A DNA stretch of 35,429 bases from a virus: positions 1 through 35,429 of IMG/VR virus record IMGVR_UViG_3300025009_000275; one strand, written 5' to 3'. Both the position numbers and the translations under genes were made by a program. Positions 21,991 through 24,210 of the stretch are shown here, piece by piece (the first letter of the stretch is position 1; every line of letters begins with the position of its first letter). Under the pieces are notes generated by a model, which was not told where the DNA came from, did no database searches, and saw only the letters and a list, made by a program, of their open reading frames with translations.

Positions 21991-23252
21991 GGCTCCCTGT
22001 AAAGTAGATTGCACGTTTTTCTTTCTCATCGTTTCACCTCCAGTATCTTAGGCAAGCGGAGCTCGGGCCCGAGCTCCGCTTGGAGCGCCATGCTCGGGGT
22101 CATCCCCTGCAGGATTTTTCGGGGATAGGCATTCATCCAATCCTGGATTGTGCGCACCTTCCGCTTCGAATAGTCGGCGATGTCGGAACCCTTGGGAATG
22201 AACCTCCTGATGATGCCGTTGTGGTTCTCGTTCGTTCCCCGCTCGAAACTGCTGTAGGGGTGGGCGAAGTAGAGCACCAGCCGTTGCTGCAAGGACCGCA
22301 CCGATTGTTCCAATCCCGCGATGTCGGCGAATTCTCCCCCGTTGTCCCCGGTGACCGTCCTGAACAGCAGCCTGAAGAACGTCGGACCAATCTGCCGCTC
22401 GATCACATCGAGCTCCTCCTTGACCGCCCGGGCAGTGCGGCTGTCGATCCGGCGGGTGATTTCGAAACGGGTCTTGCGTTCGGTGAGGGTCAGCAGGCAC
22501 GTCGGAGAGCTCCCCGTTCCGCCCACCACCGTATCCGCCTCCCAGTGCCCGAACTCGCTGCGATCCTCAGCTTCCTGCGGCCGCTTGGAGATGCTCTTGG
22601 CCGCTGCGGCCGCCCGGGAGTGCCTTTTCGGCTCGCCCTTGGCCTTGCGCCGCTTGCCGCCCAGAAGCAGATCTTTCTCAGTGAGATCCCCCAGGTACCC
22701 CGCTTGGATGTAGTTGTACAGGGTCTTCTCGCAGATGCGCGTCCCGCTGGGCCAGTGCGTGTTGTTGAACTCGGCTATGACGGCATATGGCGAATATCCT
22801 TTGTCCCTGACCAGGCGCGTCACCTCTTCCACCAAGGCCCAGTCATGCCCCAGCTTCAGATCCGGCCCCTTCGCCCCTCCCTTCAGCTTGGCATCAAGCT
22901 GGGCATATTCCGCATTGTACTCCCGCACCGTGCCCAGGTCGCTTCTCAGGTGTTCCACCATGCCCCGATTCAGTTCGCTGCGGATGGTCGACTCATGCTT
23001 TCCCAGTAGTGTTCCCAGTACCAGCGGCGAGCGTATCTTCTGGTAGCCGTTCGTCCCGTTGTGATGATATTGCAACTGCAATCTCTGCTCCCAGGTGAAA
23101 TGGGTATGCCTGCCCCGGTTCTCTATGATAAGCTTCGTTCGTCCCATGGTGTCCTCGCTACCGTTGAGTTGTGGTAAACCCAGTGTAGCAGAGGCCCGTG
23201 GGACTTTTTCATCTTCCTGCTTTTTTCCCGTGCATTTCATGTTACCGCGCGC
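21991..23252 (-). mobile_element. IS30-family insertion sequence (about 1,262 bp)
   Basis: Bounded by the 16-bp direct repeat. The inner ends form imperfect inverted repeats: left CTGTAAAG...TGCACG (from 21997) and right, read inward, CGGTAACA...TGCACG, 13 of 19 matching. It holds one intact transposase gene and is clearly richer in G+C than its surroundings. Removing it with one repeat rejoins the origin region to the promoter at 23280. It looks like a recent arrival from a host genome. Confidence 0.9.
22026..23147 (-). CDS. IS30-family transposase
   Basis: 373 residues from ATG 23147 (GAGGA 5 bases upstream, start MGRTKLI); the frame is open to ATG 23240, but that ATG is in the terminal repeat without a ribosome site. 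N-terminal HTH (LVLGTLLGKHESTIRSELNRG), a basic Ala/Lys linker, then the DDE core: HWEADTVVG (D), TGDNGGEFAD (D) and YSSFERGTNENHNGIIRRFIPKG (E), the last being the IS30 signature. Intact, hence probably active. High GC and different codon use set it apart from phage genes. Confidence 0.95.
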   Translation of the reverse strand: MGRTKLIIENRGRHTHFTWEQRLQLQYHHNGTNGYQKIRSPLVLGTLLGKHESTIRSELNRGMVEHLRSDLGTVREYNAEYAQLDAKLKGGAKGPDLKLGHDWALVEEVTRLVRDKGYSPYAVIAEFNNTHWPSGTRICEKTLYNYIQAGYLGDLTEKDLLLGGKRRKAKGEPKRHSRAAAAAKSISKRPQEAEDRSEFGHWEADTVVGGTGSSPTCLLTLTERKTRFEITRRIDSRTARAVKEELDVIERQIGPTFFRLLFRTVTGDNGGEFADIAGLEQSVRSLQQRLVLYFAHPYSSFERGTNENHNGIIRRFIPKGSDIADYSKRKVRTIQDWMNAYPRKILQGMTPSMALQAELGPELRLPKILEVKR

Positions 23253-23279: not shown

Positions 23280-23308
23280 TTGACATTAAAGTGTATGTAG
23301 AGTAAGAT
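23280..23308 (+). promoter_or_regulatory. Rightward promoter, TTGACA-17-TAAGAT
   Basis: TTGACA 23280-23285, 17 bases, TAAGAT 23303-23308, followed by AGAAAGGAG and ATG 23331. It lies 12 bases right of the insertion element duplication, so the element leaves it intact. Drives paralogue B, the structured RNA region and probably the genes to 25280. Confidence 0.82.
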
Positions 23309-23330: not shown

Positions 23331-23507
23331 ATGAATGCATTAGATTTTTTCACGAAGAATGTAGCAGGGTATGCAGGTATTTATGGGGATAAAGGATTGC
23401 TTGGAGATATTGGGCTTCCAGCAATAGAGAGAGTATGCAATTCAAATAATTACACAGTAATTGATTTGGGTGAGACGTTCGTAATCTCAAAGAATAAATA
23501 CTGCTAG
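23331..23507 (+). CDS. Small early protein, paralogue B (58 aa)
   Basis: 58 residues, AAAGGAG 10 bases upstream of ATG 23331. Shares with the 64-aa protein at 18462-18656 the pattern F..N.A..AG..GDKG(I/L), E+V, ID.G..FV.S and a C-terminal Cys, at matching positions. No family recognised. It is the first gene behind the promoter and precedes the structured non-coding region, so it marks the start of a separate early transcript. Confidence 0.72.
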   Translation: MNALDFFTKNVAGYAGIYGDKGLLGDIGLPAIERVCNSNNYTVIDLGETFVISKNKYC

Positions 23508-23513
23508 TACATC

Positions 23514-23691
23514 CAACCGGTGATTCGACCGGTGCAAGGGGCAAAAATGGTGTCGATTGATTACAAAACCCAAAAGGGAATAATCAAGACGAGGGTTCGA
23601 TTCCCTCTTGCTCCAAAAGTGTGGGTTCGATTCCCACTCGGTTGCTGAGGATTGGTGTGAAGGGATACCGGTTCGATTCCGGTTGCAACGG
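23514..23691 (+). ncRNA. Cluster of tRNA T-arm-like hairpins
   Basis: Three perfect T-arm-like elements with loop TTCGATT: GAGGG/CCCTC (23591-23607), GTGGG/CCCAC (23621-23637) and ACCGG/CCGGT (23667-23683). A fourth, with loop TGATTCGA, is at 23516-23533. Each of the three is followed by 7 bases able to pair upstream: the second with CAACCGG at 23514, the third over 5 bp with GTTGC at 23641; these two pairings compete for the same bases. The spacing of 30 and 46 bases is too short for ordinary tRNAs. No open reading frame fits on the plus strand. Confidence 0.55.
23538..23615 (+). ncRNA. tmRNA-like tRNA mimic (78 nt) with G3-U70 alanine signature
   Basis: GGGGCAA (23538-23544) pairs with TTGCTCC (23608-23614); the only non-Watson-Crick pair is G3-U70, and the discriminator is A, as in tRNA-Ala and tmRNA. 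The T-arm is GAGGG-TTCGATT-CCCTC. Instead of D and anticodon arms there is a linker with GGTGTCGA, like the tmRNA D-loop phrase GG.TTCGAC, and one long hairpin: GTC/GAC, bulged GA, TTGATTA/TAATCAA (23557-23563 with 23581-23587), then CCC-AAAA-GGG. No encoded CCA and no tag reading frame. An ordinary tRNA anticodon stem cannot be formed. Confidence 0.55.
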
Positions 23692-23765
23692 ACTTGGTGA
23701 AAAAGACCACGCAAGTCTAGCTTATGGTAAGTGGTAGCAGAGGGAAGCGGCTCTAACGCTAGATA
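23691..23765 (+). other. Two further hairpins upstream of the 50-aa gene
   Basis: GACTTGGTG (23691-23699) pairs with CAC-g-CAAGTC (23708-23717), and TCTAGC (23716-23721) with GCTAGA (23758-23763), enclosing AGAG/CTCT. The two share two bases, so they may alternate. Together with the T-arm cluster this makes about 270 bases without a gene but full of structure. Confidence 0.5.
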
Positions 23766-23789
23766 TTAGTTTCAAAAGGAGAAATGAAC

Positions 23790-23942
23790 ATGGCGAGGAA
23801 GTCAAAAGAGACAGAACAAGATTGCAAAGTACATGAGTTTACCAGACAGATACACTCAAGCACCAGAACAGGCACAAGCTACGCAAACATGGACAACTGG
23901 AACGAGAAGGAAGCAAAAGACGCATGGAACAGGAGGGCTTGA
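23790..23942 (+). CDS. Small Lar-like protein (50 aa)
   Basis: ATG 23790 with AAGGAG 8 bases upstream; 50 residues ending DNWNEKEAKDAWNRRA. The final EAxxAWNRR is the end signature of Lar-type restriction alleviation proteins and related phage zinc proteins, but the CPFC...C..CG part of that family is missing (only one Cys). It may be a shortened relative. Antirestriction would fit the nearby methyltransferases; this is inference. Confidence 0.5.
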   Translation: MARKSKETEQDCKVHEFTRQIHSSTRTGTSYANMDNWNEKEAKDAWNRRA

Positions 23943-23943
23943 A

Positions 23944-24210
23944 ATGAAAATATTCCTATCAGGATCAATAAGCCACGACAAGAACTACAAGGAGCATTTC
24001 AAGGAAGCGCGAGAACGGTTCCACGACTGTCACGTTTTCGATCCGTCGCAACTTCCACCGGATTGGTCGTATGAGAAGTATATCAAGGTGTGCCTTGCTG
24101 AACTTGTAACGTGTGACCGTATCTGCTATGTAAACGACGTGACCACAAGCAAGGGATCGTTCATAGAAAGCGTTGTGGCTCTTGCGTGTGGGATTGAGGA
24201 GATTGTATGA
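23944..24210 (+). CDS. DUF4406 / nucleoside deoxyribosyltransferase-like protein
   Basis: 88 residues from ATG 23944 (AGGAGGG upstream; the open frame further upstream to 23833 overlaps the Lar-like gene and is not needed). MKIFLSGSIS, HVFDPSQLPPDWSYEKYIKVCLAELVTCDRICYVNDVTTSKGSFIES.VALACGI matches the DUF4406 pattern, a small Rossmann-like fold related to nucleoside 2-deoxyribosyltransferases; the SxxxE near the end corresponds to the substrate pocket. Likely acts on nucleotides, perhaps salvage or base exchange. Confidence 0.82.
   Translation: MKIFLSGSISHDKNYKEHFKEARERFHDCHVFDPSQLPPDWSYEKYIKVCLAELVTCDRICYVNDVTTSKGSFIESVVALACGIEEIV

Follow-up and report, generated by a model that had tools for sequence, protein, structure and literature searches.

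A 78-nt element on the plus strand of a phage genome (positions 23538..23615 of the window, the term used here for the whole 35,429-base virus record that was analysed, which carries tail, terminase, replication and methylase genes) was identified as a tmRNA consisting of the tRNA-like domain (TLD) alone, and at least 85 distinct elements of this kind were found over all loci. An earlier note on this DNA proposed a phage RNA that copies the tRNA-like half of tmRNA but lacks the message part, and this proposal finds good support in an Rfam alignment, in covariation, in more than 80 distinct relatives from viral contigs and in the position within tRNA arrays in cultured phages.

Anatomy of the element and its operon

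The features of the region are as follows.

23280..23308, plus strand: sigma-70 type promoter TTGACA-17-TAAGAT, 10 of 12 consensus matches, -35 box perfect
23331..23507, plus strand: small ORF of 58 aa with a ribosome-binding site, upstream of the RNA, without a family match
23516..23533, plus strand: T-arm-like hairpin ACCGG-TGATTCGA-CCGGT, also found in the nearest relative, G001 (24-nt match, 96%)
23538..23615, plus strand: TLD-only tmRNA, 78 nt, identified by Rfam RF00023, covariance model R1, covariation and relatives
23538..23544, plus strand: acceptor 5' strand GGGGCAA (G1, G2, G3), pairing with 23608-23614
23548..23556, plus strand: reduced D-loop TGGTGTCGA, the GG..TCGA phrase of tmRNA, D stem absent
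23557..23587, plus strand: short P2 helix (TTGATTA/TAATCAA, A-rich internal loop, CCC-AAAA-GGG cap), replacing the whole message-like part
23591..23607, plus strand: T-arm GAGGG-TTCGATT-CCCTC, helix 100% paired in the 20-sequence alignment
23608..23615, plus strand: acceptor 3' strand TTGCTCC and discriminator A73 (at 23615)
23621..23637, plus strand: further T-arm hairpin GTGGG-TTCGATT-CCCAC; in G001 GCCGG-TTCGATT-CCGGC, stem compensated
23667..23683, plus strand: further T-arm hairpin ACCGG-TTCGATT-CCGGT; in G001 GGTGT-TTCGATA-GCACC, stem compensated
23691..23717, plus strand: hairpin GACTTG.GTG...CAC.G.CAAGTC, after the T-arms, covarying with G001
23944..24210, plus strand: DUF4406 (nucleoside deoxyribosyltransferase-like) gene, downstream of the RNA (PF14359, 56.9 bits)

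The anatomy given in the earlier note (a 7-bp acceptor with G3-U70 as its lone wobble, A73, a T-arm with the loop TTCGATT, a long hairpin, and neither D nor anticodon arm) was recovered in full at these positions. The sole wobble of the acceptor helix is indeed G3-U70, and the 3'-terminal CCA is not encoded, AAAG following directly after A73. Within the stemless D-loop, TGG lies at 23548-23550 and TCGA at 23553-23556, and the sequence GGTGTCGAT deviates slightly from the commonest form, GGTTTCGAC. The two strands of P2 (TTGATTA at 23557-23563 and TAATCAA at 23581-23587) are followed by GAC at 23588-23590, immediately before the T-arm. The fold of 23538-23615 has a minimum free energy of -26.4 kcal/mol (z -3.2), and 3 of 200 shuffled sequences were equally stable. 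The message-like part, resume codon, tag frame, stop and pseudoknots are all absent, with 296 of the 374 positions of RF00023 deleted and a length of 78 nt that is too short to hold them. A mini-tag frame inside P2 was considered and rejected, the room being insufficient.

At curated thresholds, Rfam gave no match in the window, and ARAGORN reported neither a tRNA nor a tmRNA there; a blastn search of the element region against phages also returned no match. In the covariance search with the Rfam tmRNA model that the earlier note had recommended, RF00023 at a permissive threshold aligned 23538-23618 end to end with model positions 1-374, at 44.1 bits (E 2.6e-16), which lies below the gathering cut-off of 47. 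This sub-threshold score alone is not decisive, because 76-nt matches in bacterial genomes, probably ordinary tRNAs, reach 30-40 bits. The gathering score was passed by 16 of 20 tested relative loci, with matches of about 80 nt scoring up to 74.5 bits. A covariance model, R1, was built from 20 aligned elements that share one linker length; it scores the window element, itself one of these 20 sequences, at 86.3 bits, the next best match in the window reaching 20.2, and it detects the element in about 60 loci. Taken with the scrambled-pattern control described below, the resemblance to tmRNA lies far outside chance expectation. The acceptor with G3-U70 and A73, together with the stemless GG..TCGA D-loop and GAC, characterizes the tRNA-like domain of tmRNA, and the element is homologous to this domain; as a phage-encoded RNA composed of the domain alone, it belongs with the TLD-only tmRNA of the mycobacteriophage DS6A kind.

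The promoter at 23280..23308 is a probable driver of the operon that contains the RNA. The 40 nt around it are 100% identical in G001, and the small ORF behind it is not conserved there, a different and unrelated small ORF occupying the same place; a search for relatives by way of this ORF found none. The three hairpins downstream of the element are probably functional RNA parts, because their stems change by compensation in G001. A permuted tRNA formed by the hairpins of 23667-23790 was considered and rejected, the T-arm not being adjacent to the candidate acceptor strand. On the minus strand, a transposase-like gene (22026-23240; phrog_4646, E 1.2e-99), without a Pfam match, adjoins the RNA operon; no aligned counterpart of it was found just upstream of the operon in G001.

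Covariation, spread and genomic context

The earlier note had also proposed a search for the same element in related phages with stem covariation, and such elements were found with their pairing kept. The terminase of G001 (locus L121) is 90% identical to that of the window phage, and its element lies at the same place, with 84% identity over the region. The two elements differ at 11 of 78 nt, comprising four double changes that preserve base pairs (eight differences: A-U to G-C, U-A to G-C and A-U to U-G in P2, and G-C to A-U in the T-stem) and three changes in the P2 loop. The same relative carries a tRNA-Leu-like gene (L121:5058-5176; RF00005, 34.2 bits) with a large insertion in the anticodon/variable region, one that ARAGORN misses.

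Selection on the pairing is also seen across the wider set of sequences. In the 20-sequence alignment, 98.4% of cells pair, the acceptor helix is 100% paired with G1-C72, G2-C71 and G3-U70 invariant in 20/20, and all seven pairs of P2 show changes on both sides; covariation amounts to 0.841, whereas shuffled alignments give 0.173 (sd 0.023) and slid controls do not exceed 0.138. RNAalifold, applied to 48 sequences, predicted 12 pairs, of which 10 show changes on both sides.

Viral contigs were scanned with a pattern consisting of GG..TCGA followed by a T-arm within 22-50 nt, a stricter version of which additionally requires a TCCA 3' end. The looser pattern identified dozens of similarly built elements. 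Among the matches of the strict pattern that were listed (at least 120), 112 have a 5' GGG acceptor strand pairing at 6-7 of 7 positions, and at least 81 are distinct; when TCGA was replaced by the scrambled ACGT as a control, the total was 35 matches, nearly all of them ordinary tRNAs, with such an acceptor in one. The elements from all loci, at least 85 of them distinct, measure 64-86 nt, mostly 77-80; among 85 distinct elements listed, 84 have A73, 49 have GAC ahead of the T-stem and 11 encode CCA. The strict pattern yielded about seven cases, phage-like in nature, in cellular genomes of 84,980 species, and the element is therefore concentrated in viral sequence.

The cultured carriers are the Streptomyces phages LuckySocke, GiJojo, Alone3, pSt2308, BRock and Shaeky, in all six of which the element lies inside a tRNA array. 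In four of them its neighbours are tRNA-Val(tac) and tRNA-Ser; BRock has it at the same array place, but the tRNA that follows is called as Cys or Arg, and in Shaeky it is flanked by tRNA-Phe and tRNA-Leu. One syntenic place is thus kept in five divergent phages. The internal motif AAAGCCGCA.GCGGA is invariant in the six elements, and none of the six records has an RNA annotation at this position, which carries no annotation at all in five of them and is overlaid by a hypothetical protein in GiJojo. In metagenomic contigs, a tRNA gene, usually on the same strand, lies within 300 nt of 16 among the 85 elements listed, and four elements abut an exonuclease gene. Nine distinct and diverse elements precede the major capsid gene by about 100-300 nt (L011, L043, L048, L054, L055, L065, L245, L253 and L259), with a prohead protease gene upstream in six of the nine. 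The region upstream of the major capsid gene is typically one of high late transcription, and position in a tRNA array or upstream of the capsid gene suggests abundant expression. SmpB was found in none of the 56 records searched, including six complete phage genomes, while control genomes gave matches.

Two other groups of repeats were observed in cellular genomes. Candidatus Eremiobacterota/WPS-2 genomes (loci L134, L175, L149, L157, L137, L176, L180 and L185, and about 20 further genome loci) contain a 72-nt TLD-like repeat (GGGGCGnnTCGATGGTGTCGAC...CGGGTTCGATTCCCGGGCGCTCCAGCC), sometimes in tandem, beside a full tmRNA, with 1-3 model matches per genome in eight searched genomes. Methanolinea/Euryarchaeota MAGs (L125, L152, L166 and L173) carry repeats (TGGTTTCGAAAGGC...GGCCGCGGGTTCGAATCCCGC) that include a T-arm but are not TLDs.

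Proposed function and alternative explanations

In tmRNA, the TLD receives alanine and is carried by EF-Tu, and SmpB binds at its elbow, D-loop/T-loop contacts being required; the remainder of the molecule provides the template (PMC3968760). The phage element retains every part on which alanylation and the interactions with EF-Tu and SmpB are known to depend, and none of those for templating. Mycobacteriophage DS6A carries a TLD-only tmRNA (tmID 11587), and a DS6A-like molecule expressed in E. coli is described, in secondary accounts, as a strong tmRNA inhibitor that acts perhaps by SmpB titration, whether chargeable or not (PMC4131195, PMC11915505). Of the functions suggested in the earlier note, the best fit is interference with ribosome rescue, for which DS6A provides a reported precedent. 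The RNA is rather probably a competitive decoy: by tying up SmpB together with the alanylation/EF-Tu route, it would block trans-translation during infection. This is the most likely function, because the parts for the first steps are kept, those for templating are gone, and the DS6A-like RNA is reported to be inhibitory. The global Rfam alignment, the covariation, the lack of SmpB in the 56 records and the positions suggestive of abundant expression also speak for it. In such a mechanism, the RNA would be transcribed within a longer phage transcript, trimmed by host tRNA-processing enzymes and supplied with CCA by the host; host AlaRS would charge it by means of G3-U70/A73, EF-Tu would carry the charged RNA, and host SmpB, the phage supplying none, would bind its elbow, so that the RNA would compete as a decoy to the presumed benefit of the phage. 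The slightly deviating D-loop of the window element and its unencoded CCA count against this reading. Certain phages reportedly gain from trans-translation in the host, and the benefit of blocking it is for this reason not obvious. Organelle tmRNAs that lack a tag frame are, moreover, thought to be helpful, so loss of the message need not mean inhibition.

One alternative is a minimal rescue helper, in which an alanine-charged TLD together with host SmpB would enter stalled ribosomes, take over the nascent chain and help to free the ribosomes; as no tag would be added, phage proteins would escape proteolysis. Mitochondrial tmRNAs that lack a tag frame are conserved alongside imported SmpB and are considered useful (PMC11915505). 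Phage tRNA arrays that hold many elements are usually regarded as sustaining translation. The explanation is nonetheless unlikely, as no release step is known without a stop codon and the DS6A precedent is reported to be inhibitory (PMC4131195, PMC11915505). A part played outside trans-translation, as bait for host defences that cleave or modify tRNAs or as a drain or source of alanyl groups, would agree with the complete acceptor and T-arm, with the other T-arm hairpins in the window and with the presence of some copies in tRNA arrays, which are called a putative antidefense system in the abstract of PMC12803027. It is judged quite improbable, given that the anticodon loop, the usual nuclease target, is absent and that the conserved parts (GG..TCGA, GAC and the A-rich loop after P2) are specific to tmRNA rather than generic to tRNA.

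The identity of the element has likewise been weighed. The gene ssrA is a common phage integration site and a transposase-like gene adjoins the element in the window, both of which would suit a functionless remnant of an attachment site or of a decaying tmRNA gene; this reading, raised in the earlier note for an attachment site, has very little probability, because the 5' and 3' halves are complete, the acceptor 5' strand is intact and covarying, G001 differs by compensation and in the P2 loop, and the same architecture recurs in at least 85 distinct sequences in unrelated gene contexts, besides the synteny among Streptomyces phages. That the element is an ordinary divergent tRNA, or a misread tRNA-Ala, is hardly credible: tRNAs can apparently score 30-40 bits in the tmRNA model, to judge from the 76-nt sub-threshold matches, but the D stem and anticodon arm are missing, ARAGORN is silent, and against the R1 score of the window element (86.3 bits, with the element among the model's sequences) tRNAs in the same loci score at most about 28 bits.

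With competitive decoy action as the preferred function, the presence of so stripped-down an RNA in dozens of unrelated phages suggests that jamming of host ribosome rescue is a common phage tactic. The broader proposition, that TLD-only tmRNAs form a large and widespread class of small RNAs which phages position for high expression, in tRNA arrays or ahead of the capsid gene, and use as decoys for host SmpB to shut off trans-translation, appears to have slightly less than an even chance. If it is true, trans-translation would be a general antiphage or phage-limiting process countered with RNA by many phages, and the conserved AAA on P2, together with its CCG-CANG-CGG cap, would form another functional site. 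If the elements act like the DS6A RNA, phages would often inhibit ribosome rescue, a strategy open to testing in existing phages, and the elements would provide natural minimal TLDs for structural work.

Comparison with known tmRNAs

The element shares with canonical one-piece tmRNA (RF00023, ssrA) the G3-U70/A73 acceptor, the reduced GG..TCGA D-loop, the start of P2, GAC and the T-arm; unlike canonical tmRNA, it has no message-like part, pseudoknots, resume codon or tag, and its P2 comprises 7 pairs rather than about 12. Full-length phage tmRNAs, such as those of mycobacteriophages Bxz1 and Melnitz (PMC9004378), are likewise phage-encoded, and mycobacteriophage tmRNA genes have been reported within tRNA arrays (PMC5966550), but they keep the tag frame and, in principle, full trans-translation. 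ARAGORN, on which the survey of full phage tmRNAs was based (PMC9004378), calls none of the 85 bare elements listed here. The absence of a tag reading frame is shared with tag-less organelle tmRNAs (those of jakobid and oomycete mitochondria, and the ~65-bp forms of Mallomonadaceae plastids), which, unlike the phage element, are organellar and mostly encoded by permuted genes, the mitochondrial ones operating with imported SmpB.

Of the 97,179 tmRNAs in the 2025 tmRNA database, only nine are of standard form and lack a reading frame (PMC11915505). In the searchable literature, taken as lying outside preprints and subscription papers, no report of a wide spread of TLD-only phage RNAs was found. 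DS6A has already made the kind itself known, and organelles are known to have tag-less forms; what is of real interest is the class-wide spread. By the description of the DS6A RNA, both it and the present element are phage-encoded and consist of the TLD alone, whereas the present elements are spread over many unrelated phages and hosts, frequently with the AAA and CCG-cap motif on P2 in common. One phage case, DS6A, was known before, compared with at least 85 distinct elements and six cultured Streptomyces phages here.
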